From: Lunularia cruciata
Taxonomy: Eukaryota; Streptophyta; Marchantiopsida; Lunulariales; Lunulariaceae
Length of the DNA stretch: 64,000 nt
Direction of reading: 5' to 3'
Assembly: GCA_948567375.1 (NCBI GenBank)
Contig: OX419759.1
Coordinates: forward strand, 42,188,593 to 42,252,592
The first letter of the stretch is position 1. The number at the start of each line of letters is the position of its first letter. The translations under genes were made by a program, and so were the position numbers. The notes beneath the pieces were generated by a model. That model made no database searches. It was not told the origin of the DNA and saw nothing but the letters and a program-made list of their open reading frames with translations. This document shows positions 6,112 through 33,844 of this stretch, piece after piece.

Positions 6112-6118
6112 AAAATCA

Positions 6119-7549
6119 TGTGACAACCAGGCAAATATCACTTTTGTGATAATTAGTAAGTAAAGTTTGTTCACACATAGAAACTGATGAGAAATGGTCA
6201 CATACAAAGTAAAAAATAACAATTTAGCTCTTCTTGAGTGCTTCTTCAATCTCTTATTGAAAAACCACACCCAAAAGAGAGTAAAAAGCATTGATTACAA
6301 TCTTGTCACAAATTACACACTCATAATCACAATACTTCCAATTTTTTCTGAACAAATTGCAATTGTGATGATTTAGATTCTTCCAAAGAAGGCAACTTCA
6401 CTACAAAACAAATTCACCTCAAAATTATGTTCCACCTCTCCACTAAAGGCACAACTTCTTTGATCAAAATTTCTTCACATTAACCCCATATTGCGCTCCC
6501 AAATGAAAAATACTACCAACACTACAATTCCTCATGGATCTATCAAGGCATTGCTTTGATTTCTTTCTACTCAAGATCAAACACATAGAATGAAATCAAA
6601 GTTGTGGCATCCAATTTCCAACATCCAAGAAGCTCACTGACTTGCATTTCAAAAATATCCAAACACTCATAAACACACACACACACGATTGATACTTAGA
6701 ATTAAGCTAAAATGACGAGCACTAAGTTATAGCACTTTGCTTTACTCAACTTTGAAAATACAAATATTGAACAACAACACATTGCAAGTGCTTCCTTTAA
6801 ATAGGCTAAGCACTTTGATAATTATCTAACTAATATACCATTTCCTAATAATATCCAAATCCAAAATGGCAACCCACTCTTCATAACTGTCAATTCAAAT
6901 CTCAAACTAGCTATGAATCCAATCCAATATCTACCTCTTCTTCTTCTAAAATTGATGTAACTTCCCTTGCTTCTTGTACTTTGAATCTATCAACTTTACA
7001 AGTTCTTCTATTTCTCTAATCTCTTCAGTCTAAATTGCAACTGACTCATAAGCATTCTATTTATCTCCTTAGCTTCCAACCCACTTACTCCTAATCACTC
7101 AGATAACTCCTCCAAAGGCACTTGCACTCCTACCTCTCTTACTTCACCTTGGGTTCCTAACTTCAAACTACTCCAAATCTACTCTGACTCAGATTTCACT
7201 AAATCTAATATGATACACACATTTTCTCCCACTTCACTAATTTTCCTATCTACTTGATCTGTAAGTTGAATCAAAAGATTGTTGAGATTCGTATCCTTTG
7301 CCTTTCTCTTCCTCATCTCCTGCACTAACAACCTCATCTCATGCAGGCATACTTCTTCTACCTTCACTTTGGCTTTGGCTTTGGCTTTCAGCATCATACT
7401 AAGCTTCTCTATTACTCCCCCTACCTGCTTTGATGTATGATCTTGAGCTCTCTCCACCTGCAATTCTTCATAGTACATCTTTAATGCATCTTTGAACTTG
7501 GCTTTCAATGCTTCCATCTCCTCCATGTATTGGGCAAGTTGGGCTTCCA
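6119..7549 (-). mobile_element. 5' LTR of element A, truncated
   Basis: The LTR begins on the plus strand with TGTGACAACC at 6119, directly abutting the primer-binding site. It aligns over its length with the other minus LTRs at 7649 and 29450. A TATA-like motif (minus-strand CTATTTAAA) lies at 6796-6804. The LTR breaks off near 7549, where plus-strand pol sequence of element D begins. About 2 kb of LTR, including its outer end, is therefore missing. The break falls in the coiled-coil coding part of the LTR. Confidence 0.75.
6960..7549 (-). pseudogene. LTR-encoded coiled-coil protein, C-terminal part (LTR A)
   Basis: This is a remnant of the protein carried in the LTRs of this family. The open stretch from 7549 down to 7179 encodes a coiled coil (AQLAQYMEEMEALKAKFKDA), then the conserved block VCLHEMRLLVQEMRKRKAKD and NLNNLLIQLTDQVDRK. 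The frame is broken near 7179, and an acidic tail continues to about 6960. The coding frame reads on past 7549 into the neighbouring pol fragment, so an open frame spanning 7179-7613 is a chimera and not a gene. The function is unknown. The same block recurs in at least five other LTR copies here. Confidence 0.65.
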
Positions 7550-7648: not shown

Positions 7649-8439
7649 TATGACAACCCAGCAAGCATCACTTCTGTAGTAATCAGTAAGTAAAGTTCAT
7701 TCCCACAACAATATGAGTCAAAAATGGTCAAATATGAAGTTAAACAATAACCAACCAGCTCTTCTTGGTTGTGTCTTTAATCTCTCGAGTAGAAACTATA
7801 CCCAAAAGAGAGTAACAAGCGCTCAATAGCAATTCTTGTCACAAATTACACACCCATAATCACAATACTTAAAATCTTTTGAAACCAACTTTGATTGTGA
7901 TGATTTAGTTCTTCCCAAAGAAAGCTACTTTACCACAAAATTACTTTGACTCAAAATTTTGTTCCACCCCTCCACTGAAGGCACAAATTTTTAATCAAAG
8001 TTGCTTTCCATCAACCCCGATCTGATCACAAATGCAAAATACTACCAACACTAAAATTCCTCATAGATCTATCAAGGCATTGCTTTGATTGCTATTTCCT
8101 CAGGATCAAACACACAAAATGAAATTAGAAATATGGAATCTAACATTCAACAAGCACTTCAAATTTCTCCAAACACTCACAAACACAAAGAAGATTGTTA
8201 CTCAAAAGCAAGTTGAAACAACGAGCACTAAGTTACAACACTTTGCTTTACTCAACTTTGAAAATATAAGTACTTAACAACAACTCACTATGTATGTCTC
8301 CTTTAAATAAGCTTATCACTTGATGGCTATTAACTAAAATACCATTTCCTAACAACTTTACCAACCTATAGATCCGAAATGAAAAAACCACATGCCTCTT
8401 CATATCTACCTCTTCATATATCAAAACTATAACTAATCC

Positions 8440-9111
8440 AATCTAATGTCAACCTCAACTTTTGCTTCTACTTCAATCACTTCACCTTCTTTAGGTCTAT
8501 CAAATACCACTACTTCATCCACTATTTCTACTTTCTCTTCAATCTAAAATGAAATTAGAATGATAGCTAACCTATCATTGTTCTGATTTTCTAACCCAAT
8601 CTCTCCTAATGTCTCAAACAACTCACACAAAGACACATGCTCTCCTACTTCTACAACTTTGGACTCCTTATCCACCTTCATCTCACTACAAAGTCATCTA
8701 AATCTGATCCAACAAAATTTAATATGAGAAAATATTGTCTCCTACCTCTAACATCTTCTTTGCCACTTGATCTCTCAAACAAATCAGAAGATTGTTCATA
8801 TCAATGTCTTTCACTTTCCTCCTTCTTGTCTTCTGCACCAACAATTTTAATTTTTGCATCCTCACCTCTTCCAACTTACTCTCATTCTCAATACTCAGCA
8901 TGGACTTCAACTCCCCCACAGCTACTCTTATCTGACTCCATACTTAGAACTATCATCTCTTTACTTTGTTCTACCTCTAATTTGTTCCAATACATCATCA
9001 ACTCATCTTTGAATTCTACCCTCAGCACTTCCTTCTCTTCTACATACTAGACTTGTTGACCTTCTACACTTTTGAGCAAAATCCCCAATTGATCTTCCTC
9101 CCAATGTCTGT
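8440..9111 (-). pseudogene. LTR-encoded coiled-coil protein, C-terminal half (S1)
   Basis: This is the C-terminal half of the LTR protein in S1. The stretch 8719-8919 encodes ELKSMLSIENESKLEEVRMQ, then KLKLLVQKTRRRKVKDIDMN and NLLICLRDQVAKKMLEVGDN, the block conserved in all copies. Coiled-coil sequence continues to 9111, where solo LTR S2 cuts the frame; the N-terminal half resumes at 10949. An acidic tail reaches about 8440. Several stops and frameshifts make it a pseudogene. The function is unknown. Confidence 0.65.
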
Positions 9112-10948
9112 TGTGGTGCCCACATTTTTCATTTTGGACAAGTTTTAAAGAAGAAATGCATTACTGAAACCAAATTGAGAAGAAATGATGAGAACTCTGT
9201 ATTTTGATTTGACCCAAAGAAGTTGACTTCATGTTAGAGGAAGAGGGACTCAGATTGGATTGAAGGAGTGCACACCCAAAGAAGGAATGGAAGTTGCAAG
9301 TAAGGATTCTTGTGGGGGTTGTATCTCAATGATGACATGTCTAAATCATGTGTGCTATATCTCGTTGGAAGTGTCTCGTCCAGGGCTTTCTATTGCTACC
9401 AAAAGTGTAGAGTTTGGAGGTTTGTAGAAGAAGTTATAAGTATTTGAAGTTTTGGGAGTAATGTATAGAGTAGTTGAGTGTCTTTGGGTTCATAGTATTG
9501 CGGGTCTATACGACTTTGGACTTCGGGTTTACATGACTTCGGGTCAAGAGACTTTGCCTCAAGATGAAAGTGACTAGATTGGAGGTAGTCAAACCTTGGA
9601 GTGCAGTGAAGGTGACTTTGGGAATTTTGCTAGAGGCATCAAAGGAAGTAAGAGTAGGGAAAGAAGATATTTAGGATACCCATGACTTCAATTTCAATTC
9701 AGATTGAAGATGGGATAGAAATTGAAGGAGAAGTAGTAGTAGTGAATGAACCCAAAGTGCAAGATTAGACAATAAATGTCTTTGGGTCAATTACATGAGT
9801 GATTAGGGGACAATGGGTGACAAATTAAAGGTGTAGATAGTGTACCCATGCTTTCAATTACAATTCTTGATAAGAATATAATAGAATTAGCAAAGGAATT
9901 GATAGTAGTTAGACATAAAGTAACAAAGATAGGAGTGCAGGTGTCTTCAGCTTTGACATTTGACACTTTAGAGAAGAGTGGGTTGGAAGATAACGAGTTA
10001 GATAGGATACCTACTAGTGCAATTGTGGTTCTGAGTGAAGAAATTATAGAAATAGAAGAGTTAGGAGTAGGATCAAATAGACCCGAGGATGGTGAAATTC
10101 TCAAGGGATCATCGGGTTTGAAAGTCAAGGTCGAGGTAGACATTGGATTGGAGTAGTAATAGTTTTGAGATTTGAAAGGCAGATATGAAGATGTGCATTG
10201 TCATTTTGGATTTGTAGGTTTGTAGAGTTGTTGTAGAACGGTATAGTTGTTAGTAACTATCGATAGCTTCACTATTTAAAGGAGCATTCATAGTAAAATG
10301 TTGTTCAGTACTCATATTTCTAATAATAGATAAAGCAAAGTGCTATGAAGTAGTGCTCATCATTTGAGCTTGATTCTGAGTATCAATTTTGCATGTGTGT
10401 TTGTGAGTGTGTGGAGAATTTTGAAGTGCAAGTCAGTGTGTTTGTTGGATGTTGGATTCCATAGCCTTGATCTTCATTTTGTGTGTTTGATCTTGAGTAG
10501 AGTGCAATAAAAGCAATGCCTTGATAGATTTGAGAGGAATTGTAGTGTTGGTAGTATTTTGCATTTGTGAGTGAAGCGCAATGTTGATGTGAAGCAATTT
10601 AGATTGAGGAAGTTGTGCCTTCAATGGAAGAGTAGAACACAATTCAGAGGTGAAGTCATTTTGTAGTGAAGTGCCATTTTCAAAAGAGACGGAATCATCA
10701 CAATCAAGATTGTTTGGAAAGATTTGATGGAGTTGTGATTAAGGAGTGTTAATTTGTGACAAGATTGCAAATCAGTGATTGTTACTCTCTTCTGGGTGTA
10801 GTTTCTACCTGAGAGATTAAAGACACAACCAAGAAGAATTGCTTGTTACCATTTGACTTTGTATTTGGATATCTCTGATCAGTTTCTCTATGGGAACAAA
10901 CTTTACTTACCTGATTATTGCAAAAGTGATATTTGCCGGGTTGTCACA
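9112..10948 (+). mobile_element. solo LTR S2 nested in S1
   Basis: The LTR begins TGTGGTGCCCACATTTTTC at 9112 and ends GGGTTGTCACA at 10948. The flanks TCTGT (9107-9111) and TCTAT (10949-10953) are a 5-bp target duplication with one G/A difference. S1 coding sequence is continuous across it. At 1837 bp it is half the usual LTR length. The first 120-200 bp and the last 1.3 kb match other copies, but most of the protein-coding middle is missing. Bases about 9300-9640 have no clear match elsewhere in the window. Confidence 0.85.
9640..10156 (+). pseudogene. LTR-encoded protein, acidic C-terminal tail only (S2)
   Basis: The open stretch 9848-10156 encodes the tail that follows the conserved LHELKLLVQ block in other copies: VQVSSALTFDTLEKSGLEDN, ...DRIPTSAIVVLSEEIIEIEE, and a final SGLKVKVEVDIGLE. 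This matches 17033-17419 (ending SGLEAKVKVNIRLD) and 33557-33844. The upstream coiled coil and N-terminal module are deleted in this LTR. An immediately preceding segment (9660-9780) looks like a second, partial copy of the same tail. Confidence 0.6.
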
Positions 10949-12690
10949 TCTATCTACCAACACTCATTGCTAAGCTTGATCTGCTCTCCAACTCTTGCTC
11001 CATCATTTTTGCAATTGCCTTTGAGTGTATGAATTCTATCCTTGCATCAACAATTTCATGCTTCATCTTCTTGAAAAATGCCTTTTGCTCCTTTAGCTCT
11101 ACACCTCTCTTCAAGAAGTTCTCTTGCAAGGTATCAAAGCTCTTCTTTTGAAGCACTACTTTGACCTAAAGTTCTTTGGCTTCCTTCTCTCCTTGGGTTA
11201 GCTTACTCTTCAACTCCGAGGTCTATTTACTTCAATGCCCTACTACTTCTTACTCATCCTTCACTCTAGGATGATCCTTCTTCAACTTTGCTTTCTTCTT
11301 CTATAGCTGCACCAACAAAGGACAAACAATCTTTGATAGATACTCGACTCCAATGTCTCTTCCTTCATCATCTTCTACATCTTTGTCTTGGGTAGGTGCT
11401 TCTTTGGCTGGTACTTTACCTCAAAGACACAATCTTCTTACCTTCAACGTCATACCATTTGAGCTCTCTCCTTCTTCTTTGACTTTGCTCAGACCTGCAA
11501 CTACAGCTTGAGCACTTCCCTTTGATCTTGCTGCCCTTGGAAATACCAAGGTAGCCTCTTTTGCTTGTTCATGTTCTAACTTGACTGCAAGCAACTCCAA
11601 ACAAGGCTTATCTCCTCCTTCCATGTGGTCAATTGCTTTGTGGAACTCTTGCTCTTCTTCTCCAACAACCTCTTCCCTCAATTGCTAAACTTTGGGTCTC
11701 CTTCAATCTCGCTGATGGACTCTCCACTCTATAGAGTGAACTCTTCTTCTGCTCCTGAGTCTTCACACTTTGACTCAATTTCTCCCTTTGATTCATCCTC
11801 TGAAGATGGTTCCTTCACTACTACTGGTGTTGGCTTTGGATTCAGCCTTCTTATCTTTTGTGGCTATATTTGCATTATTTGTCCTTTGGGTCTACTTCTC
11901 TTGCTTGGCATGGGAATGTCCACTCACACTATTCTCTCTCTCTTGCTCTTGAGGTAGTAGTCTTTTCCTTCTTGAACCCACTTAATATAATAATGCTCAT
12001 CTCTATCTGCTTCTCTTTGTAAGCTGGGATGAAAGTGGAAACCATCCGTCCTCTCTCCTCTAAGCTAAGTAGGTTTAATCCAAAGTAGAAGTGGCTGCAA
12101 AGGGCACAAAGTAGTAGGGAAATATATTCATTCTCCAATTGGTAATCATTTGGCCTAAGTGTTTGTGTAAATACTTTGCCCAATCTACCACCTCTCTTGC
12201 AAACAAACATCTAGTGGAAGAATACCACCTGTTGCATCATTACATAAGTGGTTTTCTTTTGGCTTAAACATTGCCATCATCATGCTGACAATCCTCCTTT
12301 GTATTGGGTGTTTATAATTATCCACCTTGTACCCGCTTTTGGAGCAAGGTCTGTTGAAAGAATTCTTCACCTTGGCATTTTCTTCCGGAGACACACTTCC
12401 TATAGAAGGTGACTCCTTGTACTTCTCATACTTCTCTTCCTAGAACTAATCTCCAATCCAACTCAGTCCATCGAGCCGGATTTTCTCTCTGCTCTTCATG
12501 CTTAGGCCTACCTATGCAATTTTTGGGAGCAATTTATGCCATGAAACTTGGAAAGCTCAAATTCCAATTCCAAGCCAAAAATGTGATGCAAAGTCTATTC
12601 AAGACTTTGATCCTTACCACTACATCTAATCAATGAATTGCAAGACCCCTCACCACACTCTACTTATTCCCTTTTGGGGCCATTGTGTGC
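10949..12690 (-). pseudogene. LTR-encoded protein, N-terminal module, linker and start of coiled coil (S1)
   Basis: Read on the minus strand, the coding remnants start near 12690 (MAPKGNK, then stop). They run through the N-terminal module: 12185-12394 contains KSGYKVDNYKHPIQRRIVSM, MMAMFKPKE and a following CNDA segment. The stretch 11929-12210 contains CALCSHFYFGLNLLSLEERG. A Lys/Glu-rich linker follows, then a segment with LEHEQAKEATLVFPRAARSK (11421-11681). Coiled coil starts at 11156 (ENFLKRGVELKEQKAFFKKM). The order matches the copies in G and B. I do not recognise the N-terminal module as any named family. Frame breaks show it is no longer functional here. Confidence 0.65.
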
Positions 12691-13206
12691 TTCCTCACTC
12701 TTGGTCTCCAAAAGATCAAAGCTTCTCCAAAACTTGAGATTCTACCTCCTTTGGGACAACTATTGAGAGGCATAGGATATTTTTGTGACATTTCAAAATA
12801 CACGCAACAAAGTCTCAATTTTATAGTCTTTTGCTTATTGGTCATTCTTGAGTCAATTGTCAATTGACATGACAATTCTGCATGTATTTTTTCTATCACT
12901 CTCAATGTCATCTTGATCTCAAGGTTGTTGCTTTCTTTACATGTATTTTCTTGATTTTTGATGTCAAGGAAAAGTTGTTATAGGTTCTACGGATCAGGTT
13001 GTGCATCCCAACACCAAGTCCTCTATCTTTGGCTTCATACTTCTATCAATCTGACCCAAGTCCTTCCAACTTTGACTTGAGGTCTACTTTGCATCTATGC
13101 CAAACACACAATTCTTCTTGTTTCTTCCCCATTTAGCCTTCTTTTGGCTTTAACAATGCACTTCTCCTTTAAAACTTGTTAAAAACAAAAACATGTGAGT
13201 ATCACA

Positions 13207-14457
13207 CTTGCTAGTGTCCTAAGGGGCTAGCCTTGGAGCAAAGGGCAGTCTTTCTCAAGAAAATGAGGTTGTATCCGCTGCACAACATTTAAGATGTGCG
13301 CTTCTTAAAGTAAAGTACTTTGTAGGTGCTTAGAAGCATACAAAGTAGGAGTAATTGAGTCTTTACATTCAGAAGCATCAAGAGTACACAATGCCCTAAA
13401 GAGCACAAGAAAGAAAATTCTTGTAGCAGGATACTATTGGCCTACAATGTATAGAGATACTCAAGACCATATCCAAAGTTGTGATGCTTGCCAAAGAACT
13501 AGAAAGCCGACGGCTACTTCCCAATAGCCTTTGAGACCAGTTTTGCCAACAGCCTCATTTGAGAAATGGGGAATTGATTTTTTGGGTCTTATTCAATTTG
13601 TGACCTAATTCACAAGGAAAAGATAATTTTAGTATGCATTGACTATGCAACTAAAATGGTTGAAGCTAAAGCAACTCAAAGAAATCATTTTTCCAAATTT
13701 TTCTTTTGCAATATTATTTCTTGTTATGGATGTGCTCTAGAATTGGTTAGTGACCAAGGGACTCATTTTTTGAGCTCACTTGTGGAGGCATTAACCAAAT
13801 ACTTTTAAATTAAACATTGGAAGATGACTCTTTGCAACCCAAAGCTAATAGATTGACATAGAAGGCAAATGGATTGTTATGTAAAATTTTGAATAAGGTG
13901 ACTATCAACTATGCCTACAAATGGGATACAAAGCTACCTATAGCTTTATGAGCATACAAAGCCACTAAAAAGATTACCACCAAGCAAACCATTTATTTTT
14001 TAACATATGGATTGCATCTCATACTATCAGTTGAATTTGAAGTATTGTCATATCATATCTTATGTGAGGAACAATTGTCAAAGGAGGAAAGTCAGGATCT
14101 TTGGATCCATCAGCTGATGGGGTTAAAAGAGAAAAGAGACAGTGTAGTGCAAACCACAAAGGAGATACAAGATCAAGGGAAAGTTAGGCATAATAAGCAA
14201 TTATAGCTTGTTGTTGTTTGGGAGGGAGACTAAGTGTTGTTGTATGCTGCATATTTTTTCCAGGCAAGTTGCACCTAAGGTGGATGGAGCCATACCATAT
14301 ATTTCACATTTATGATAAGGGCTCTATTCAACTAGTATACTTGGAGGGAAATCCTTTTGCTACCTGAGTAAACAAGTGGAGAGTCAAAAGATATTTGACC
14401 ATGGATGTGAACATGTATAGAAGAGAAGAAGACAATGTTCATGAGGATGCTCACATT
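13207..14457 (+). pseudogene. integrase of element D (broken)
   Basis: This holds the C-terminal part of pol. The zinc-binding tail reads QSCDACQRTRKPTATSQ (about 13474-13530). The catalytic core begins FEKWGIDFLG (13558) and has the first catalytic Asp in CIDYATKMVEA (near 13645) and the second in LVSDQGTHFL (near 13748). The third acidic residue lies in a damaged stretch around 13860. Further on, LTYGLHLILSVEFEVLSY (14000-14050) matches the usual end of plant Gypsy integrase. Integrase would join element DNA to the host chromosome. Stops and frameshifts are frequent. The sequence leads into a polypurine tract and the 3' LTR of element D. Confidence 0.8.
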
Positions 14458-14473: not shown

Positions 14474-14686
14474 TGTGGTACCCATATTTTTTTATGAGTT
14501 TTAAAGAAGAAGTGTTTTGTTGAAGCCAAATGGAGAAGAAAATAGAAGAATTGTGTGTCGGTTCCAACTCAAGGAATTTGACTTCAAGTCAAAGGAAGAA
14601 GGACTCAAATTGGACTTATAGGGGGGTAGACCCAAAGTAAAGAGTCTTTGCATGAGAGGGATTGACCCAATTCAAAGAAACTGTAA
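14474..14686 (+). mobile_element. 3' LTR of element D, first 213 bp
   Basis: This starts TGTGGTACCCATATTTTTTT after the polypurine tract and matches the first 200 bp of S2 and the outer end of E (a shared AAAGGAAGAAGGACTCA-like stretch). It is cut at 14686 by the 5' LTR of element B, which also starts TGTGGTACCC. The rest of this LTR is not found to the right, so its far side was lost or lies beyond the rearranged region. Confidence 0.7.
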
Positions 14687-15339
14687 TGTGGTACCCACAT
14701 TTTTTGTTTTTTTTAAGTTTTAAAGAAGGAGTGCGTTGGTAAGGCCAAAGGATGGCTAAATGGGAAGAAAGATGAGGAAATGTGTGTTTGGCTTAAACCC
14801 TAAGTCAACCTCGGGTCAAGTCCAAAGGACCCAAGTTGGACAAGATAGAATAAAAAGACAAGAACTTCATATTAGGTAGCGCAACTTGATCCAAAGACCC
14901 TATAGCAAACTTCTTTGAGTTTTGCCAATCAAGAAAGTATGCGGGAAGAAAGTGATTGCCTCGGGACCAAGATGATCTTGAAAGTGACAAAAAACAACTT
15001 CACAGAATTAGTGAGAGATGTGGAGCAGCAACTAAAGAATGACCAATCAGCAAAGGACTATAAAAATTGAGATTTCTGCAAGGAAGCATTGCAATGTCTA
15101 GATGTTATGCTATTCCTATTCAGAGTTGACCCAAAGGAATGCAAATTTTGAATATCCAAGAGTGGGTTAGAATCTTGGGTATGACCTTTCATAGGCAGAG
15201 AGTGAGGAAGCACTACAATGGCCCTGAAAGTGAGTAAGAAGAGTGCTATGAGAGGTCCTGCAATGCATAGATTGGATGTAGTGGCAAAGATCAAGGTCTT
15301 ATCAAGACTTTGTATCACCTTTTTGGCTTGGAACTAGAA

Positions 15340-17419
15340 CTTTAGCTTTCCAAGTTTCATGGCAGAGATTGCCGTGAGTGATTGCAAGGATGGGCTGAAG
15401 CACAAAGGAAAGAGAGGAAATCCTGCTCATGGACTGAGTTGGATTGGAGATTAGTCTTGGGTAGAGAAGCCAAAGAGGTAGGGGGTGCCACCTTCTATTG
15501 AAAGTGTGATGCATCAAAAGAAACTGCCAAGGTGAAAAATTCCTTTAATTGACCATGCACAAAGAATGGGTATAAGGTGGATAGTTATAGAGACCAAGTG
15601 CAAAGAGGGATCGTGAGTGCGATGATGGTGATGTTCAAGCCAGAGCAAACCACCTATGTCACAATGTAGTAGGTAGTTTTCTTCCATCATATGTTTGCAA
15701 GTGAAGTGGTGGATTTGGCAAAGTGTCTAAACCAACGGGTGGGGCAGATGATTTTGGGGTGAAGAATGGATATACAACTACATTACTTCATACCCTTTGC
15801 AATTCACTTCTACTTTGGGCTGAATCTGCCTACTTTAGAGGAGAGAAGTAGAATGCGGTCTCATTTTCATTTTGATTTGCACAAGGAGGTAAATGTGGAT
15901 GAATGATATTACATGGAGCGGGTTCATGAAGAGGATGAGTATAATATGAAGAGAGTGAAGGAGAAGATAGTATCAGTCAATCTTCCTCTGCCCAAAAAGC
16001 AAAGTAGACCCAAAGGATGAGTTGTATGAATAGCACCACAAAAGAAGCAAAAGCCTAATCCAAAGCAAGTGTTAGTGAAGATAAAAGAATTGATTCCCAA
16101 GGAGGAGCCAAAAGGAGAAACCAAGTCAAAGGGAGAAGCCTCAAGAGGAGAAGAAAAGTTCACACTACAAAGTGAAGGGTTGAGCAATGGCAATGAAGGA
16201 GAAGTTGAAGTTCACAGCAAACAAGAGGAACAGTTGTGGAAGCAAAGAAGACAAGTCCAAGGATGTCCACATTCAAGCAAGGGTGTGAGAAGGAAGATAG
16301 AGGTGTCTTGGTATGTCAAAGAGGTGCTAGGGGGAAGAGGAGTGTTCAAGATGTCACCGTTGGACCAAGTAAGGTTACTATTGAGATTGAAGAGAGCTTG
16401 GATGAAGAAACTTTGAAGATACAAAGATCGTCTGTTCGGGGTAAAGTTCCAATCAAGGAGTTACCTGCAAAGGGCAAAGATGGCAGAGCCAATGATGTGA
16501 TGGAGTAGAGTATATGTCAAAAGTGGTATGTCTCTTATTGGCATTTTTTCAGCAAAAGAAGTTGGAGATAGCATTGGTCAAAGTGCTAAAGAGTGAAATT
16601 GTTGATGCACGAGTGGAGACGATGCATTCAAAGGCAAGTGCAGCAATGATGGAGCATGAATTGGAGAGTATGAGAAAGAAAGTGGCCAATAAAGACCAAG
16701 CCTAGCATTGAGAGTTAACAGAGCAAAGTTGGGAGGAAGAGCAATTGTGAGGATTGTTGAGAGTAGCGGAGGATCAACTTGTGCTGAGTCAACAAGAGAA
16801 GGAGGTAATGAAGGTTGAATTTGAAGACAAGTTGATGATGTATTGCAATGAGCTAGAAGAGGAGAGGAAGAACAAGAGAGTGGAGCCGGTTGTGGAATCA
16901 AATGTAGTGGGAGCAGTGGTGAGCGAGTTGAAGGCGCTATTGAGTACTAAAGTTGAAGGGAAGTTGGAAGAAGCAAGACTGCATGAGTTGAAATTGTTGG
17001 TGTAGGAGGAGAGGAAGAGGAAGGCAAAGGACATGAAGTTGAATAATCTGTTGATTTGTCTACAAGATCGTGTAGATAGGAAAATGTTAGAGGTAGGAGA
17101 CAATGTCTATCTCAGATCAGATTTTGTTAGATCAAACTTATTTAGACTTTGTAATGAGATAAGATTAGAAAAGAAGTCAAAAGTAGTAGAAGTAAGAGTG
17201 CAAGCATCATTGGGTGAGTTACTTGAGACATTAGAGAAGAGTGGGGTGGGAGATCAAGAGATAGATAGGTTACCCATGACCTCAATTGTAGCTCAGGGTG
17301 AAGAAGTCGTGGAAATAATGGAGGATGTAGTAGAATTCGATAGACCTAAAGAAAGAGAAGTGATAGGAGGATCATCGGGTTTGGAAGCCAAAGTCAAAGT
17401 TAACATCAGATTGGATTAG
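15340..17419 (+). pseudogene. LTR-encoded coiled-coil protein in 5' LTR of element B (broken)
   Basis: The order matches G and S1. An N-terminal module begins near 15360 (MAEIA-like) with the MGIRWIVIETKC region near 15570 (the frame-shifted GYKVDSYKD block). A Lys/Glu-rich linker follows at 16069-16250 (KELIPKEEPKGETKSKGEAS). Next comes a segment at 16236-16508, then coiled coil at 16514-17005 (MMYCNELEEERKNKRVEPVV, then VGAVVSELKALLSTKVEGKL). The conserved block spans 16980-17110 (LHELKLLV, NNLLICLQDRVDRKMLEVGD), and the tail at 17100-17419 ends GLEAKVKVNIRLD. No signal peptide or membrane segment is evident. The protein is long, soluble-looking and mostly helical; its function is unknown. 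The N-terminal half has many stops and the C-terminal half only a few. Confidence 0.7.
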
Positions 17420-17534
17420 AAATAGATTTGAGATTTGAAGAGGCAGATATGAAGATGTGCATTGTCATTTTGGATCTGTAGGTTGGTAAAGTTATTGTAG
17501 AACGGTATAGTTGTTAGTAATTGTTGATTGCTCT

Positions 17535-17545
17535 ACTATTTAAAG
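17535..17545 (+). promoter_or_regulatory. TATA-like core promoter motif in LTR
   Basis: CTATTTAAAGG occurs about 680 bp before the LTR end. It is kept at the same relative place in S2 (10271), LTR A (minus, 6796-6804), S1 (minus, near 8300) and G (minus, near 30131). Conservation among otherwise diverged copies supports a role as the LTR promoter. It lies downstream of the LTR's coding region. Confidence 0.55.
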
Positions 17546-18222
17546 GAGGCATTTTGCAGTCTTATGTTGTTTAGTATTCATTATTCTTGAGAATAGATAA
17601 AGCAAAGTGCTATGAAGTAGTGCTCATTGCTTGAGCTTAACTCCAAGTATCAATCCTATGATTGTGTTTGTGAGTGTGTGGAGAATTTTGAAGTGCAAAT
17701 CAATATGCTTATTAGATGTTGGATTCTACAGCCTTGATCTTCATTCTATGTGTATGACCTTGAGTGAAGTGCAATCAAAGAAATGTCTTGATAGATCTAG
17801 GAGGAATTTTAGTGTTGGTAGTATTTTGCATTTATGAGTGCAACGCTGAGTTGATGTGAAGCAATTTTGATTGAGGAAGTTGTGCCTTCAGTGGAGGAGT
17901 GGAACACAATTTTGAGGCAAAGTCATTTTGTAGTGAAGTAGCCATGTTAGGGAGAGATTGAATCATCACAATCAAGATTTTTTTGGACAAAATTGAATGA
18001 GTTGTGATAAAGGAGTGTTAATTTGTGACCTACTGTGATCTAGTGTTTGTTGCTCTTTTTGGGTGTAGTTTCTACCTAAGAGATTAAAGATGCAATCAAG
18101 AAGAACTACACTAAGACTTTTTTACTTCATATTTAAATTTTTTTACTTGTATCTCTATGAGAACAAACTCTATTTACCTTATTACCACAAAAGTGATACT
18201 TGTTGGGTTGTCACATGATTTT

Positions 18223-18241
18223 TGGCACTACTACCGGGGAT
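18223..18241 (+). other. primer-binding site of element B (tRNA-Asp type, mutated)
   Basis: TGGCACTACTACCGGGGAT follows the LTR end by 7 bp. It matches the tRNA-Asp type site TGGCGCCGTTGCCGGGGAT at 14 of 19 positions, with only transitions. The same site at the same distance in element A confirms the family. Confidence 0.75.
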
Positions 18242-18347: not shown

Positions 18348-20225
18348 AAAATTGCATGGTGAAGAAGAAAAATGCAAGAAGATCCAATTTACTTTTGATG
18401 AAACCAAACTGAAGGTGTTGGATTTTCAACTTCTCCACAAAGTTCAAGAAGCCTTGCAAGAAAACACAAAGGTAGGTAGCAAGGATACTTCTTATCTCTA
18501 CCTTCCAAGAAGAAGAAAGACCCCAACAAACAAGCATACTCATTACAACCCACTACACCGACTTCCCCTAAAGTTGTCAAGGAAGTCAAGTTTATAAAGA
18601 AATTTATTTGTGAAAAGATAACACAAATTTTAACGGAAGAAGAGTGCCAACGTCTCTTACAAAAAATTCCTTGGTTGGCTTGAGGAAATTTTCAAGAGCA
18701 CGCTAAAAGTGTTGAACCTCTTGCTCCATTTCCAGTCAAATTTGACACTATCAAACAAGAAGAATCTATCAACAAAGAATCTACTTTGAACTTGACTAAT
18801 TGGGACCCTTGGGCTGTCAATACAACTTCAATAACAACCAGTTCCTTTGGTCCATCAAGTTCAAACTTACAATAGCAGATTCCTTAGAGCAAAAGAGTGA
18901 CTTTGTTACCTATTACCTGACACACCTATTAGAAGTATAAGGGGACAAAACAAGACAAAGATCTTGATGGATTATCAAAGAATTTGAAGTCATTTCCTTT
19001 ACCAATAAGGAACATGACTTTGTAGATCATTTTTTCATTTTTCCAAGTCTAGTCCGAAAGAAAGCTCAGAGCTGGTATACACATGTAACCCGGAAGGAGT
19101 TCACACCAGCCGATTGGGAAGACTTGCAAAATGGCTTCCTACAACAATTCCGAGAAGTTGATTATGATATGAGTGTCTTTGTGGCACTCAATGATTTGGA
19201 TAGAGGGAAGAAGGAGAAGTTGAGAGACTACTTTGAGCGGTTCATGGCCCTTTTGAACTGTGTCTCAAAGCAATCTGGTGTAGCGGGTTACTCCAATGCC
19301 CAAGCCATTACTTGGTTTCTTGGAGGACTTTCACCAAAGATTTTTTTCTTTGCCAAGGAGAGGAATGTAACTTCCCTGGAAAAGGTCCTCAAATATGTCA
19401 CCCAATACAAGGTGGCTCACTCTCACTCTTCGGTAACAAAAGAAATCAAGAGAAGAAAGGCAAGAAGCCAAAAAGAAGAGCTTCTTGCAATACATCCCCT
19501 TCTTAGGAGGAATCCTCCACATCTTCAAGTTCTTCTTTGGAATCCAAAAAAGATTGTAAGCCAAGGAGAATAAAAAGGTGTAGACAAAAGAAGCCAATAA
19601 CACCTCCAGCAAAGATTTTAAATAAGGCTGATCAAAAGCTGGAGACTCTTATTAAAGAGTTTGTAGATTTCAAGATCCAAATGATTGGGGCTAAGGACCA
19701 AAAAAAGCCTCCTTCATTTGGCAGACCAAATGTAGGGTGCACTACGTGTGGCAAATCCAACCACACTTATACGGTTGTTTGACCCGCATTGCATTTCCAA
19801 TGCAACAAATTGATTGGGTTCTAGGTTGGGACCAAAGTGAGGAAGACAAGGTAGTGTATCGGACCCAAGAGGTATAGCCTTAGGCAAGCACATCATATCA
19901 AGGTCCAGGATATAGACCAAAGGAGTACAACAACAATGCTCCTCCATGAATACCACCAATGGGCGGCCAAAATAGGCCTCAAAATGTTGCATTGGGTGCT
20001 TGTTATAATTGTGGCTCAATGGGATAATGGTCTCCAAACTGTCCAAAGCCAAGACGGAAAATTGGGTTTGTTCCTTTATGTGGAAATTGTAAAGGATTAG
20101 GTCATATTGGAAATCAGTGCCCACAACCACCAAACCCGAAGCCGCTTGTAAAGTATGTACAAACCCCAGCTGAGCGTGTTGCGCTCCAGGCAAAATGGGA
20201 TACAAATGTAAATTGTATAACACTT
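18348..20225 (+). pseudogene. gag of element B (broken)
   Basis: The N-terminal Lys-rich segment at 18352-18597 (FDETKLKVLDFQLLHKVQEA) matches element A. The capsid-like region at 19124-19573 contains MSVFVALNDLDRGKKEKLRD and AITWFLGGLSPK. A first zinc knuckle near 19738 (CTTCGKSNHTYTV) has lost its last Cys. A second near 19998 (CYNCGSMG, stop, WSPNC) is broken. A third at 20079-20120 (CGNCKGLGHIGNQC) is a perfect CX2CX4HX4C. Three knuckles in one gag is more than the usual one or two. Gag would assemble particles and bind the RNA genome. Stops lie between the blocks, so no full-length protein is possible. Confidence 0.8.
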
Positions 20226-21290
20226 GAAGAGGAGAGACCTCAAGAAGGGAGCTCGGCTTTTGAAGGCAAATGGTCAGACCTCAAAATTTTGAAAGTTGAG
20301 ATGTGCTCAAGTAAGAAGAAGCATGATCCCAAAGGAACAAGTACTATCTCTTTGTCTTCACGAAAGGCAAAGAGATTGCGCCCAAAAGCTATTCTTTCTA
20401 CCAAGGAGGAAAAGATTCTTGCAAAAGCTAAAGCTAAAGCTTTGCAAAAAGAGATTAAAGAAGCAATACATAGAACTTGGGAAATGAGTTTGGAGGAGGA
20501 TACAAAGATGAAGCCTCCCATCTTTCCAACGGACATCAGATCCAAAGTGAAGGATCTGATCCAAGCCAAGGTGGGCAAACCCAAAGAACCTTGGGTCCAG
20601 ACCACTAGTACTCCGGTCACCATCTTGAAGCACCCCAAAGTCCAACTCAAACAAGGAGAGACTTTGAACCTAAGGTCAAAGGCAAAGAAGGTGAAGTTGG
20701 GGGGAGTACTCCAATATGATATTGTAGCAGATTTGGCCTCTATGAATGCAAATGTCACATTCAAGCAATTGTGGGAGGACAACAAGCTATACAAGAAGCA
20801 GTTGAGTTCAACCCTCAAGAAAGTAAGGGCGATGACCAAGAAAGACTTACCCGCAATTTATTGTATTGAACAAGAAGATTTCGGATCAAACAAGGAGACG
20901 GCCTTTGGGCATACTATCAAATATTCTATGATCATTGGAGGGGAGCCCTTCAAGTAAAACTACATCATGTTATGACCAGTAACTAAAATTGGTTAACCAT
21001 TGTTGATTGGTAGACCCTTGTTGTACAATGCTCAAGTTATTGTGGATTGGCACCGGCAAAAGTTAAGATTTAAGGACATCTTGTCCAAGGACCAAAAGCT
21101 GGTAACTATGAGTTGGACGAAGGTTCTCCATCTCAAGGAAACAACCTTGTCAAAAGATGAAGATGAATCCAAAGACAAAGTCCAAGTCAATTACTTGGAG
21201 TGCTACGAGGTAGAGGTTAAAGACAAAGACCCATACGACATCACCTCAGGTGAAAATGACTTGGAAGAAGGAGTTTGATTGTAGTTTGAC
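20226..21290 (+). pseudogene. gag-pol linker and protease region of element B (broken)
   Basis: The open stretch 20289-20957 (222 residues) is Lys-rich and probably helical (EEKILAKAKAKALQKEIKEA), with several K/P/Q-rich segments. After a frame break, 21000-21278 reads LIGRPLLYNAQVIVDWHRQK, the usual end of a retroviral-type aspartic protease domain, followed by an acidic, Asp/Glu-rich linker. The catalytic DTG-like motif is not visible and is presumably lost in the frame-broken stretch at 20880-21000. The same protein blocks occur in element A at 336-1420 on the minus strand. Confidence 0.65.
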
Positions 21291-21479: not shown

Positions 21480-22350
21480 TTGACACAAATTTGGAGAACA
21501 TTAGATTGATCTGGTTGAAGGTGTTGTTCCGGTTTGGCAAAGATAGTACTGCATGAACCCAAAGTACTCACTGACATAGACATAGACAAAGATGACATAG
21601 ACAAGTACTTAGGGGCCAGAATAATCTTTCCCGTTTTGAGCAATGAGTGGGTCTCCTCCATTGTCATTGTTCCAAAGAAGAAGATTGGGAATATTTGAGT
21701 GTGCTAAGATTTTTGCAAGTTGAATGCAGTCACAAGAAGGGATCATCATCCCTTGCCTTTCACCAATACAATTTTGGATCAAGTAGTTGGTCATCCTTGG
21801 TACAGTTTTCTCGATGGATTTTTAGGCTATAATCAAGTATCTATCCAAGAAGAAGACAAGGACAAAACCACATTCACTACCAATTCAGGCACTTTTGCTT
21901 ATAGTCAAATGCCCTTTGGGTTGTGTAACGCTCCTACTACTTTCTAGTGGATGATGAATATAATCTTCAAAGATTTTCCATGCAAATTTTTGGACGTCTT
22001 CATTGATGATTTTTGTGTGTTTGGGCAAAGAGAAGTACATTTGGATTACCTTCACCAAACTTTTGAAGGTGCCGTTTTGCCGGTTTGTCATTACACCTAG
22101 AGAAATGCTTCTTTGCAATGAAGGAAGGAATTCTTTTGGGGCATTGGGTGTCAAGCTGAGGTATTGAAGTCAATGTTGAGAAGGTAAAAGTAATCTCAGC
22201 TTTGGAATCCCATACAAACGTTTGGGAGCTGAGAGCCTTCTTGGGACATGTCAGATACTATAGACACTGTGTATCAAACTACATGGTGCTTGCTGCACCG
22301 CTCACAAACCTCTTGAAGAAGTCCAAAGACTATTTATGGGAAGTGGAACA
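21480..22350 (+). pseudogene. reverse transcriptase of element B (broken)
   Basis: RT motifs appear in order. IIFPVLSNEWVSSIVIVPKK is near 21620 and NAVTRRDHHPLPFTNTILDQ near 21723. FLDGFLGYNQVSIQEEDKDK (about 21807) carries the first catalytic Asp. TFAYSQMPFGLCNAPTTF follows near 21890, and FIDDFCVFG (about 21998-22025) is the catalytic Asp-Asp box. The enzyme would copy element RNA into DNA. The sequence is best preserved at 21720-21947 and has stops before and after. The FIDDF form and GYNQ spelling are typical of plant Athila/Tat Gypsy elements. Confidence 0.85.
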
Positions 22351-22810
22351 AGAGAAGCTTTCCAAGTATTGAAAAATAAACTGGTTGAAGCACCAATTAT
22401 GAGGGCCCTAAATTGGAATGTCCCTTTTCATATGTATGTGGACACTTCATCCATGGCAATCAGAGTCATCTTAAGTTAGAAGGACGAGAAGAAGAAGGAT
22501 TACCCAATTTATTATGCCAACCAACAACTTTCCATTTTTGGAAAGAATTGTTTGATGAGTGAAAGAGAAGCACTTGGAATGGTGTATGCCTATAAGAAGT
22601 TTCACCATTATTTGTTGGGATACAAATTTGTCTTCTATGTTGACCATTATGCGTTGCAACATTTGGTCAACAAGGTATATTTGTCTCAGTGAATTGCAAG
22701 ATGGATCGTGTTGTTACAAGAGTTCACCTACATTGTACAAGTAAGGAAGGGAGCTTTTCATTCAATTTCAGACTTCCTATCTAGGTTGGAAACTCAAGAC
22801 CAAGAATTGG
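22351..22810 (+). pseudogene. RNase H of element B (broken)
   Basis: The RT connection (REAFQVLKNKLVEAPIM) is followed by an RNase H with MYVDTSSMAI near 22433 (first Asp), MSEREALGMVYAYKKFHHYL near 22555 (Glu) and FYVDHYALQHLVNK near 22633 (Asp; usually TDH). A final KGAFHSISDFLSRLET near 22750 matches the usual end of the domain. It would degrade the RNA strand of RNA/DNA hybrids. At least two stops interrupt it. Confidence 0.8.
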
Positions 22811-23461
22811 AAGTCAATGATCAATTTCCTGATGAAAAGTTGCACCATTTAATGGCAATGCAAAGTACGAGGTATGCGGCAGAATATCATTACATGCATA
22901 CTTGCCATTGTCTTGAGGGACTGGACCCAGAGCAGAGCGCAGTCTTCCTTAGGAAGATGGGACTCTACCAGCTAAAACCAAACATTTTATTTAAGATGGG
23001 TGAAGATGAAGTACTTTGGAGAGGCTTGGAGGCATACAAAGTTGGAGGAGTAATTGAGTCCTCACACTCTAAAGCATTGAGAGGACACTATGCCTTGAAG
23101 AATATTGTAAACAAGATTCTTTCATCAGGGTATTTGTAGCCTATGATGTATAAGGATACTCATGCCTATATACAAAGTTGTGATGCTTGCCAACAAACAG
23201 GAAAACCGATAGCTCCTTCTCAATGGCCTTCAAGACCAATTTTGCCATTGGCTCCATTTGAGAAATGGGGTATTGATTTTGTGGGTCCAATTCAACCAAT
23301 GACTCAAGTCATGAGGAAGTGATATATCTTGGTGTGCATTGATTATGCTACCAAGATTGTGGAAGCTGAGGCCACTTGGACAGATGATGTGGAAATAGTT
23401 GTAGAATTTTTCTTCCAAAACATCATTTCATGTTAAGTGTGTCCTCTAGAGTTGGAGAGAA
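22811..23461 (+). pseudogene. integrase of element B, C-terminally truncated
   Basis: A linker at 22811-22980 is followed by the zinc-binding domain: GHYALKNIVNKILSSGYL (His part) and QSCDACQQTGKPIAPSQW (Cys part, near 23173-23226). The core begins FEKWGIDFVGPIQP near 23260 and keeps the first catalytic Asp in VCIDYATKIVEAEA near 23333. The sequence stops at about 23461, before the second and third acidic residues, where LTR-derived sequence joins. It aligns with the element D integrase (13207-14457), which shows what is missing. Confidence 0.8.
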
Positions 23462-23492: not shown

Positions 23493-26422
23493 AGAAAGGG
23501 ATTTGTTTGGCCCAAAGGAAAGTGGTTGGAAGCTTGGGGAGAGAAGTTGGAGATGCAAGAGGAGTCACCTTCTATTGGAAGTGTGATTTGTTGAAGAAGA
23601 CCAAAGAGGTGAAGAATTCCTTCAATGCTCCTCAAACTAAGAATGGGTACAAGGTAGAGACTTACAAAGATCCAATAAGGAAAGGTATTTTTGGGGCTCC
23701 AATGGTGATGTTTAATCCAAACTACATCACCTATGTGACAAAGTAGGCGGTGTTCATCTACCATGTGTTTGTAGGCAAAAAGGTGAATTGGGCAAAGTGC
23801 TTTCACCAAAGAGTGGGACAAATGATAAAGAATTAGAGGATGAACTTGCCACCCAACTACTTTGTGCCATTTGCAGCCCATTTCTATTTGGGGTTGAACC
23901 TACTCAGCTTGGAGGAGAAGGAGAAGATGGTGTTGCACTTTCATGCAGATTTCCATTGAGATGCAAAAGTGGATGCGCAATATTATATAAGATACATCCA
24001 AGGAGGCAATAAACACTTTTTCAAGATAGGGTAGCAGAAGACAGTGGCGGTAAGTATCCAAATGTTGAGGAAGTAGAGTAGGCCCAAGGAGGTAGCATCA
24101 TCCATTCAGCCAACAAAGACTAGGATATTGAACCCAAGGCAAGAGACGGCGGTTAAGGCAAAGTCAAGTTTAAGGGAGGAAGGAGAAGCCAAGTCTGAGT
24201 GCAAGAACTCAAGAGAAGAAGAAGAAGAGCTCACTCTATAGAGTAAGGAGCCAAGCAATGAGAGTAATGGAGAACCCAAAGTCCAGCAATCAATGGAAGA
24301 AGGGGTTGAGGAAGATGATTAGGAGTTCCATGCGCAAATTGAATGCATGGAAGGAAGAGATAGCCTACACTTGGAGTTTCCCAAGGTGGATATCCTAGAG
24401 GAGAGAGAAGAGTAGCCAGTACTAGTGTTTTGGAGAGGGATGAGATCAAAGAGAAGTTTGTAGCTCACAATGGTAGGGATGAGTTGAGCCAAAGAAGACA
24501 AAGAAAGCTTGGAGGAGATCAGTTTGAAGGTGAGAAGATCATGACTTTGAGGTAAGGCACCAATGGAAGAATTGCTTGTCAAAGCTAAGGACAAAGAGGA
24601 CAAAGGTGAGGTAGAAGAGTTTAGTGGAGTATATTATCTATCAAAGGTCATTTGTCCTTTGTTGTTGCAACTAAAGAAGAAGAAGGCAGATCTAAAGAAA
24701 GAGCATCTAGAGGTGAAGGATGAATTGCAGGTAATGAAGTATCTGGGTGATGAAGTAGTGGAGTCCAAGAAGAAGTTAACCCGAGGAGAGGAGGAAGCCA
24801 AAGTACTTTTTGGTTGATGTTGTACTTTGGAAGAAGAGCTTAGATAACTTGTAGGAGAATTTTACAAAGCAAGGAGGTGATCTGGAATGTCAAGCTGAAG
24901 AATTGAGAGAACTGAAGGCAACATTTGAGAAGTTGAAGGTAGACCTTGTTGCAACCTCTCCTCTTCACAACTTCTACTCACCAATTTGTATTGCTGGGAC
25001 CGATCCTTCTCCACTAGAATCTGTTGCAATAGAGAAGGATTGGGCTTGGCAATGCAAATTGGTGAGTGGAAGTTGTGAAGAGGAGAGGTTGCAAGGACTG
25101 ATCAAAAGCATGCAAGCTCAACTTATTCAATATATAGAAGAGAAGGAAGTGTTAGAGGTGGAGCATGAGGAGGAATTAAAGATGTACCGGGATGAGTTGG
25201 AGTCAAAAAGAACTTAAGAGAAGTTAATTCTGGGGAAAACATCTGCACAGGTAAGAAAGATCATCAAAAGGATGAAAGCAACCCTTAGCACTCAAGCCAA
25301 AGCCAAGTTACAAGAAATTTATTTACATGAGCTGAGGTTATTAGTGCGGGAAACTAGAAAGAGGAAAGTGAAGGAAACCAAACTGAATAATCTTTTGATT
25401 TGCTAGAGAGATAGAGTAGACAGGAAGATGGTTGCAGTAGGAGACAATGTCTAGCTCATATTAGATTTAGTTAGATTAGAATTAGATAAAATTTATAGTT
25501 GTGTAAAGGTAGTAACCCAATGTGAAGTAGCTGAAGTACTAGTGCAAGTAACTTTGGTTGAGTTATATGAGTGAGTTGAAGAAGTTAGCGTAGCAAAAGA
25601 GACTATAGTAAGTAGGATTATGAATTTAGTTGCAATTCAGACTGAAGATATGACATAAGTAGAGGAAGATGTAGAAGTAGTGGATGAACAAAAAGTGTAA
25701 GAGACTATTTAGTTTAGATAGTTTCTAATTGTTGAGTGCTTTGCCTATTAAAAGAAGGCATTTCTAGTGTTATGTTGTTCATTATTCATAATTCATATTC
25801 ATATTTGAAGTTGAGTAGAGTGAAGTGTTGTAACTCAATGCTCGTCATTTGAGTTTAATTTTGAGTGTCAATCTTGTATTTGATTATGATTGTTAGGGGA
25901 AGTTTAAATTGCAATCTGAGTGTGTAAGATGTTGGATTCTATAGCTCTTATTTCCATTCTGTGTGTTTGATCTTGAGTATAATGCAATCAAGGCAATGCC
26001 TTGACAAATATGTGAAAAATCATAGCATTGGTAGTAGTTTTTGCATTTGTGATCATATGTTGGATTCATGCAAAGCAACTTTGATTGAGGAAGTTGTGCC
26101 CTTAGTGGAACACAATTCTGAGGAAAAGTCATTTCATGGTGAAGTAACCTACTTTGGAAGAATTGAATCATCACAATCAATATCAATTTGGAAAGAGTCT
26201 GAAGAATTATGATTATAGGTGTGGTTTATTTATGAAAAGACTACAAATTGAGTGTTTTTTACTCTCTTCTATATGTGGTTTCTACCCAAGATGCTAAAGA
26301 AGAAACCAAGAAGAACTATTTGTTGCTTTTACTTCATATTTGACCATTTTTTACTAGTATCTTATGGGAACAAACTATTACCTATCAATTATTGCAAAAG
26401 TGATACTTTTTGGGTTGTCACA
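23493..26422 (+). mobile_element. plus-strand LTR fragment, 5'-truncated
   Basis: This is LTR sequence of the long family, lacking its first about 750 bp. It aligns with LTR B from about 15430 onward and ends TGGGTTGTCACA at 26422. No primer-binding site or gag follows; minus LTR E interior begins at once. It could be the displaced 3' LTR of element B or an independent insertion into E. The truncated left end prevents a target-duplication test. Confidence 0.7.
23500..25700 (+). pseudogene. LTR-encoded coiled-coil protein (23493-26422 fragment, broken)
   Basis: The N-terminal module is comparatively well kept. The stretch 23489-23746 reads FNAPQTKNGYKVETYKDPIR, with GAPMVMFNPNYITYV further on. 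The stretch 23788-24012 contains an AICSPFLFGVEPTQLGG block equal to HFYFGLNLL in other copies. A Lys/Glu-rich linker (24050-24560) leads to coiled coil at 24563-25217 (LLQLKKKKADLKKEHLEVKD; then YIEEKEVLEVEHEEELKMYR). The conserved block follows near 25320-25450 (LHELRLLVRETRKRKVKETK, NNLLIC). A degraded tail reaches about 25700. The family is not recognised. The pattern of conserved blocks separated by variable charged linkers is the same as in G. Confidence 0.7.
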
Positions 26423-27762: not shown

Positions 27763-28244
27763 TATGGAGCCCACATTTTTTGTTTTTAACAAGTTCTAAA
27801 GAAGAAGTGCATTGTTTAAGCCAAAGGAAGGCTAAATGGGGAAGAAACAAGAAGTATAGTGTGTTTAGCATAGACCTAAAGTTGACCTTGGGTCAGACAA
27901 ATGGAAACATGAAGCCCAAGATAGGGGAATTTGTATTGGGATGTGCAACCCAATCCAAAGAACCTATAATAATTTTCCTTGGGTTCAGCCAATCAAGAAA
28001 TTATGTGTAAAGAAAGCGACTACCTTGGGATCAAGAAGACATTGAGAGTGATAAAAAATAGACACGCAAAATTGTCATGTCAATTGAAGATCAATTGAAG
28101 AATGACCAATTGGTGAAAGATTATAAAATCATGATGTCATTGTGGGCATTTTGAGTATCACAACAATATCCTAAGCCTCTCAATAGTTGTCCCAAAGGAG
28201 TTAGAATCTCAAGTTTTGGGGAAGGTTTGATCTTTTACAGACCA

Positions 28245-33262: not shown

Positions 33263-33844
33263 ATGTACCTAAACAAATTGGAGGTAGAGCAAAGTAAGGA
33301 GAAGATAATTCCGAGTGTAGAGTCAGATTTAGTAGGAGCAGTCATGGAAGAATTAAAGGTGATGCTCAGTACTAAGGCCAAGGGTAAGATAAAAGAGGTA
33401 AGGCTACATGAGTTGAAGTTGCTAGTGCAAGAAACAAGAAGAGGGAAGGTGAAGTATATCTACTTGAACAATCTTTTGATTTGCCTAAGAGATTGTCTAG
33501 ATAGAAAGATATTAGAAGTAGGAGATAATTTTTGTCTCAGATTAGATTTAGTTTGATTGGATCTAGATAGACTTTGTAGTGAGATGAAGGTAAATAGGAA
33601 GTCCAAAGTTATAGAAGTAGGAGTGCAAGTATCTTCAAGAGAGTTACCTAAGACATTAGAGAAGAGTGGGTTAATTGATAAAGAAGTAAATAGATTACCC
33701 ATGACTTCAATTGTAGTTCAAATTGAAGAGATAGTAGAAATAGTGGAGGAAGTAGTTGTATTAGATAGACCCAAAGAAGGAGAAGTATTTGAAGGAACCT
33801 TGGGTTTGGAAGCCAAAGTTAAGGTTAACATTAGATCAGATTAG
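33263..33844 (+). pseudogene. LTR-encoded protein, conserved C-terminal block and tail (F)
   Basis: This resumes the F coding frame after G. It reads VESDLVGAVMEELKVMLSTK, LHELKLLVQETRRGKVKYIY and NNLLICLRDCLDRKILEVGD (to about 33556). After one stop comes the tail DRLCSEMKVNRKSKVIEVGV, ending GLEAKVKVNIRSD at 33844. It is nearly collinear with 16900-17419 in LTR B. The stop between block and tail lies near the same place in the E, B and F copies, just after the VGDN block. Confidence 0.7.

Follow-up and report, generated by a model that had tools for sequence, protein, structure and literature searches.

Can the long terminal repeats (LTRs) of a plant retrotransposon carry a protein-coding gene that is kept by selection? 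This question is raised by a 64,000-nucleotide (nt) stretch of the Lunularia cruciata genome (hereafter the window; C8:42188593-42252592 of the species' own 566-Mb assembly), in which the initial annotation described LTRs of 3.5–3.8 kb encoding a protein inside U3. We found that the coding region is contained in each of the two LTRs of a complete element and also in solo LTRs, and that purifying selection preserved its open reading frame (ORF) as a protein during divergence of the families and while the elements were active. The reading that we prefer, and to which we assign a probability of roughly 0.85, is that this high-copy Ty3/Gypsy family with 3.7–3.8 kb LTRs, in a plant with flagellated sperm, holds in U3 a selected third gene besides gag and pol, which would have its own U3 promoter and a product acting in trans.

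The window contains one complete LTR of the family, copy A (14687..18215, plus strand; TGTGGTACCCACA...GGTTGTCACA). This copy starts with TGTGG at 14687 and ends with GGTTGTCACA at 18215, followed by TGATTTTTGGCACTACTACCGGGGA and a primer-binding site (PBS; TGGCACTACTACCGGGGA, 18223..18240, plus strand), so that the PBS fixes the LTR end as the initial annotation had claimed. The same annotation took the opposite limit from an LTR start after a polypurine tract (PPT) at 14474. An LTR does start there, directly after the PPT ATTGAGGAGGTATA, but it is the 3' LTR of a different element (TGTGGTACCC), cut after its first 213 bp (14474..14686, plus strand), and not the start of the copy at 14687. 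All further features of copy A lie on the plus strand. Upstream of the coding region, U3 has a TATAAAAA box (15059..15066), a candidate gene promoter with CCAAT 16 nt before it. The ORF itself (15210..17416) is decayed, its blocks being spread over three frames and interrupted by several stops and frame changes, and downstream of the coding blocks lies TATTTAAA (17537..17544), a candidate core promoter for the element RNA. Approximately 195 bp following LTR nt 1887 in other A copies are missing from the window copy. Comparison of the copy A LTR with the window by blastn returned 18 rows including itself, and tblastn of its stop-free plus-strand pieces matched other copies in plus sense and in the same block order, in agreement with the plus-sense protein remnants reported earlier. 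Pairing of 14687..18215 with 23533..26422 as the LTRs of a single element was not supported, their flanks being unlike and their aligned pieces diverging by 28–33%.

When the genome was sampled with a 134-base piece, 40 of 1976 first-look candidates were scored, and 20 stretches of 10 kb (one of them an extension) were taken around ten of these 40 places; many copies were found inside. Two main kinds were present, A (similar to the window copy, LTR ~3.7 kb) and B (LTR 3.78 kb), sharing ~66–68% identity in the coding part and mostly 72–80% after it. A PBS directly followed each of five LTR ends read as sequence (window copy A, L017, L024, L031 and L038), and a PPT directly preceded seven LTR starts (window 14474, L016, L023, L032, L035, L039 and L043). 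The complete element on C6, for which the sequence covers the two LTRs and their edges, consists of a 5' LTR of 3781 bp, the PBS TGGCGCCGTTGCCGGGGA, the PPT TTTGAGGGAGGGGGTA and a 3' LTR of 3782 bp, with the target-site duplication (TSD) AATAT on both sides. Its LTRs are 96.48% identical over their whole length (132 mismatches), and the first base of the 5' LTR is mutated (CGTGG). Three further 3'-position LTRs were complete from PPT to CACA end, at 3779, 3779 and 3783 bp. Thus, the LTRs of the element read at both ends are not short repeats of under 1 kb, and this element holds the coding region twice, as had been anticipated. Solo LTRs with perfect 5-bp TSDs were found at C1:28075137 (TTTGT), C10:4241754 (TTGTT) and C2:19476747 (CAAGG). 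The initial annotation had also relied on TSDs around solo LTRs of the window; the four checked there do have 5-bp flanks, but only four of the five bases match, and the perfect duplications are those elsewhere in the genome. The claim that the coding region belongs to the LTR and is not an internal gene holds, since it is kept both in solo LTRs with TSDs and in the C6 LTR pair. One solo LTR (C8:27040427-27046375, L013/L014) carries an internal tandem duplication of approximately LTR nt 326–2347, with a single, perfect TSD (GTGCT) enclosing the whole.

In subfamily B, LTR nt 1–552 are without coding signal and include a TATA box at nt 388. The ORF runs from about the ATG at nt 553 to ~2889 or slightly further (~780 codons or more), and is followed by TATTTAA at nt 3105 and by R and U5 to nt 3782. 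Both C6 copies end near nt 2889; that of L017 seems slightly longer, in another frame. A piece of 501 codons is open in L027, and a search of the own genome with this piece as query scored 86 of 27,853 first-look candidates. All 86 span 499–501 residues; apart from the place of the query itself, identity was 90–94% (85 copies). No stop occurred in the matched part of 16 of the 86 (query's own place included), and three were both stop-free and part of a listed open frame of 878 codons.

The distribution of differences over codon positions was used to determine whether this ORF has been under selection. Within the window, copy A was compared with 16 other segments, with frames hand-assigned from tblastn-shared blocks, and with short junctions, segments below 80 columns and the self match dropped. 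In the coding blocks, differences at positions 1, 2 and 3 numbered 448, 400 and 719 of 1889, 1890 and 1887 sites (p 7e-35); in the noncoding LTR ends they were 392, 375 and 351 of 1739, 1741 and 1744 (p 0.22). As these p-values treat copies as independent although they share ancestry, the flat flanks and the flat LTR pair (below) are the better controls. The excess was also seen against the L017 LTR (segments below 120 columns dropped). Segments with less than 78% identity differed in the ORF at 1698/6778, 1233/6792 and 2873/6735 sites and after the ORF at 1092/5219, 1084/5230 and 1021/5204 (0.209/0.207/0.196). For segments with at least 78% identity, the corresponding values were 333/2292, 269/2292 and 676/2293 in the ORF and 355/2443, 369/2442 and 336/2422 (0.145/0.151/0.139) after it; the 78% split places some B-type copies (among them window 33262-29450 and part of L028) in the lower class. 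Against the C6 3' LTR, six B copies had 624, 510 and 1267 differences of ~4480 per position, and three A copies 266, 194 and 383 of ~900 per position. This third-position peak between elements was confined to LTR nt 553–2826, with no significant phase difference at nt 1–402, 403–552 (where A copies have no aligned sites), 2827–2960 or 2961–3782. The codon-position bias predicted for the coding region was therefore strong in the ORF and flat in the rest of the LTR, real copies having been compared and no consensus built. At LTR nt 1201–2520, the middle of the coding region, divergence between the subfamilies is so large that no A copy aligned to B at the nucleotide level; B copies retain the third-position excess in this part.

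Between the paired LTRs of the C6 element, the same ORF had 30, 21 and 27 differences of 758 sites each (p 0.43), which indicates that the gene drifts after insertion. In comparisons of 152–491 codons with the L027 piece, the ratio of nonsynonymous to synonymous difference proportions (pN/pS) was 0.211 for L024, 0.272 for L017, 0.259 for L027 plus and 0.222 for window 32711. Values were 0.34–0.41 for the two C6 LTRs and 0.481 for pooled, more distant pieces, whose synonymous sites are near saturation (pS 0.70). Transitions make up 70% of the differences in noncoding LTR sequence, which lowers the neutral expectation of pN/pS from 1 to ~0.70. In neutral simulations (60 runs each; averages 0.67–0.71), it ranged over 0.41–1.11 at 3.5% divergence and 0.55–0.90 at 16.5%, and the third-position share reached at most 0.44 and 0.39, respectively, compared to 0.53 seen in B copies.

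The position of two TATA-like motifs bears on how the gene may be transcribed. Of 30 distinct copies, 23 have TATAAA at −127 to −189 from the ORF, versus 7.6% in shuffled sequence; of the seven copies without it, six had one-off words only and one had nothing TATA-like. Among 534 7-mers in B (about 6 copies), none was better conserved than this upstream TATA. Downstream of the ORF, TATTTAA ranked 31st of 793 seven-base windows in A and 18th of 886 in B for conservation. It is a candidate for the natural promoter of the element RNA, and it is from this downstream position that the ORF is assigned to U3. The upstream TATA box suggests a U3 promoter for the gene, which on motif evidence would be at least as likely as a transcript entering the 3' LTR from the body of the element. 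If the box does serve as such a promoter, solo LTRs may be self-contained genes. We tentatively extend this to a view that we hold at somewhat below even odds, in which each LTR would be a mobile gene served by two promoters, one in U3 for a trans-acting protein and another for the element RNA. The strongest competitor, which we judge possible though rather unlikely, keeps the same U3 gene and has it expressed like sag of mouse mammary tumour virus (MMTV): the ORF of the 3' LTR would be read from a spliced subgenomic RNA started at the promoter of the 5' LTR, and the U3 TATA would be incidental. This is the mode described for the best-known U3 gene (PMC3026287) and the model of the initial annotation; the recurrence of the TATA box at 127–189 nt before the ORF speaks against it.

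Several observations weigh against a selected U3 gene with its own promoter. The case as a whole rests on DNA sequence, and C6 is the only complete element whose two LTRs were both read from end to end; neither carries an intact ORF, and the copy in the 3' LTR has three in-frame stops upstream of nt 2889. Both C6 LTRs are also among the 30 copies of the TATA set. None of three further candidate pairs had all four expected edges. One has its 5' start, with GTAGT as TSD, and holds the ORF in each of its two LTR positions, and its 5' LTR end is not at the expected place; in the second, the 5' LTR end with PBS was seen and the 5' start was not; in the third, the other copy has neither edge. The upstream TATA of A copies ranked only 151st of 516, with one column at 0.13, probably due to an indel. 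LTR nt 403–552 gave no significant coding signal, which makes the position of the start codon uncertain; a start at the ATG at nt ~415 was not supported, with no significant codon bias over the same interval. Lastly, the paired-LTR pN/pS was 0.467, not 1, and lies within the neutral range but low in it.

The predicted protein has no recognised relative in the sets searched. Pfam matches up to E 10 for five U3-ORF pieces were limited to sub-threshold RecT (0.032), GNAT (0.085) and HIND (0.43), which we take as chance, and the single match in PDB (E 0.43) does not represent a relative. Among 5.8 billion proteins, the 501-aa piece had no match at E 0.001 in the 8000 candidates scored (those sharing most words); a control with a reverse transcriptase (RT) piece of the same family found one protein among 24 candidates, so the set is poor in plant elements and this null result says little. 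An AlphaFold2 model of the N-terminal 260 residues from 21 rows was poor and mostly helix (mean predicted local distance difference test, pLDDT, 46; predicted template modelling score, pTM, 0.25). The middle of the protein is 23% D+E, and the last part, with 42% K+R+D+E and 2% P+G, is coiled-coil-like by eye. Our guess is a trans-acting accessory protein. A structural or env-like third gene would fit the label env-like often given to sense-strand extra ORFs of plant elements (PMC7264820); we regard it as unlikely, given the charged, coiled-coil-like open pieces and the lack of an env or gag domain among the Pfam matches of the five pieces.

Assignment of the host element follows from structure and domains. 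The C6 element has the Ty3/Gypsy structure of paired TG...CA LTRs, 5-bp TSD, PBS and PPT. Pieces of several copies matched PF03732, PF00098, PF00078, PF17919/PF17917 and PF17921, that is, Retrotrans_gag, zinc knuckle, RVT_1, RT_RNaseH and Integrase_H2C2, identifying the family as Ty3/Gypsy. In L028, RT precedes RNase H and H2C2; the integrase core (rve) had no match in the pieces tried. A non-coding long-LTR derivative (LARD) is excluded by the presence of gag-pol and the U3 ORF. The PBS is putatively of tRNA-Asp type, which its letters fit. By analogy, kinship with Athila/OTA elements is plausible. OTA elements are described with LTRs of up to ~5 kb (PMC6317226, PMC7264820), and for Diaspora and Calypso of the Athila group the LTRs are TG...CA repeats of great length, from which a PBS of tRNA-Asp type is separated by a few bases (PMC1142308). 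Unlike the Lunularia family, Diaspora is described in that source as having no lengthy ORFs in the other five reading frames. The genome of L. cruciata is given as 580 Mb, with Gypsy bursts (PMC9985172).

MMTV sag, a superantigen gene that lies in U3 and lengthens the LTR (PMC3026287), is the nearest analogue, likewise a protein gene inside the LTR with its ORF in the U3 of both LTRs. MMTV is, however, an animal retrovirus with LTRs of ~1.3 kb, whereas the Lunularia family is a plant Ty3/Gypsy family with 3.8-kb LTRs, a protein of ~780 aa or more and a TATA box before the ORF; no Sag homology was seen among the Pfam matches (up to E 10) of the five U3-ORF pieces. Ogre, Athila, Retand, RIRE2 and Grande likewise have a third coding region of unknown function across copies, but theirs is described as internal, either preceding gag or lying between pol and the downstream LTR (PMC6317226, PMC7264820), and not in LTRs and solo LTRs. 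The plant mobile domain (PMD), Transposase_28 and ATHILA were absent from the same Pfam matches. An orchid Gypsy element with an ALKBH-like 2-ODD domain also keeps an extra gene across copies; its ORF is internal despite 6.4-kb LTRs and its domain is different (PMC9289625). We found no plant or Gypsy U3 gene in the mainly open-access literature available, in part, to us, including PMC7264820, PMC6317226, PMC9289625, PMC11963269, PMC3726574, PMC1142308 and PMC12885004. The U3 accessory gene as such is known; judged by this literature, one that belongs to a plant Gypsy family and lacks a recognised relative would be new.

LTR elements do capture genes (PMC3726574), and no related protein family was recognised for the ORF; a captured host gene that is a mere passenger of the LTR and does nothing for the element is nevertheless very improbable, as such a passenger would lose the third-position excess that persists between subfamilies differing at about one third of coding nucleotides. 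An internal extra ORF between pol and a short LTR with a misplaced boundary, although internal is where plant extra ORFs have been described (PMC7264820, PMC6317226), can be given almost no weight, being already refuted for the C6 element, where paired 3.78-kb LTRs hold the ORF twice, and opposed by the PPT before and the PBS after the LTRs and by solo LTRs that contain the ORF within TSDs.

The remainder of the window is rich in related sequence. Downstream of copy A on the plus strand are a gag (18968..19570; Retrotrans_gag PF03732, E 1.9e-9), whose frame begins ~750 bp after the LTR; the zinc-knuckle part of a gag-pol (20028..20954; zf-CCHC at E 0.015, below the cut-off, the homologous L024 piece reaching 5.8e-9); a pol remnant cut off in integrase, its domains named from homologous copies (21600..23440); and an LTR copy without its first ~770 bp in which the U3 ORF blocks are present (23533..26422). 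Upstream, the pol end of the other element (integrase by homology) occupies 13240..14440, plus strand. A minus-strand solo LTR with U3 ORF blocks (7649..13206; flanks GCAAG/GAAAG) is split by a nested, internally deleted plus-strand solo LTR (9112..10948; TCTGT/TCTAT). Similarly, a plus-strand solo LTR (27763..34641; TGTTC/TTTTC) is split by a near full-length subfamily B solo LTR on the minus strand (29450..33262; TACAT/TATAT), which is 74.3% identical to the L017 LTR over 3828 columns. At 6118..7369 lies the 3' part of a minus-strand element's 5' LTR, with a PBS-like TTTTTGGTGCCATTGCC and gag-pol homology at lower coordinates.

Some reading frames in the window and beyond lie outside the family's matched copies or belong elsewhere. 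At 36801-37700, a plus-sense reading with few stops is charged and coiled-coil-like and resembles by eye the C-terminal part of the U3 gene; it is outside all matched LTR copies and is perhaps another element's gene. On the minus strand, two ORFs of 184–189 aa (3731-4934) overlap or adjoin tandem repeats (Tandem Repeats Finder, TRF, 3987-4353, periods 21–103), and a similar repeated reading occurs at L028:7213-8152. Open frames of 219–512 aa at L018:4083-8925 and L022:5451-9553 appear by eye to be gag-pol of a different, less decayed LTR retrotransposon family. A 497-aa open frame at 47803-49296 (minus strand) has the sperm-tail domain NYD-SP28 (PF14772, E 1.4e-10) and is presumably DRC2/CCDC65-like; from this gene, the host probably makes flagellated sperm.

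Under the preferred reading of a selected U3 gene, a promoter in U3 would drive the gene and the termination signal of the LTR would end its transcript, making each LTR, solo LTRs included, a self-contained gene. The protein, with an N-terminal region of unassigned fold, a D/E-rich middle and a charged, coiled-coil-like C-terminal part, would act in trans on element RNA, chromatin or silencing. Reverse transcription would copy a gene in U3 into both ends of the element, and recombination to a solo LTR would drop gag and pol and keep the gene. For a gene required solely in cis, any place in the element would do; a position that doubles the gene and lets it outlive gag and pol would suit a trans-acting helper, for which an anti-silencing or RNA-binding factor is our guess.

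The common view is that LTRs hold control sequences without coding function and that the extra ORFs of plant elements are internal. A conserved U3 gene in so abundant a plant Gypsy family alters how such LTRs should be annotated; their solo copies might be taken for families of host genes. With each LTR pair as an internal neutral reference, selection on the gene is directly measurable, and the system offers a test of the roles of accessory proteins in plant retrotransposons. For the element, the U3 position gives it a gene that survives LTR recombination. If each LTR is indeed such a mobile gene, the reduction to a solo LTR, with which an element usually dies, would leave very many stand-alone genes for a retrotransposon protein able to act on all relatives, which would help to explain the abundance of the family.

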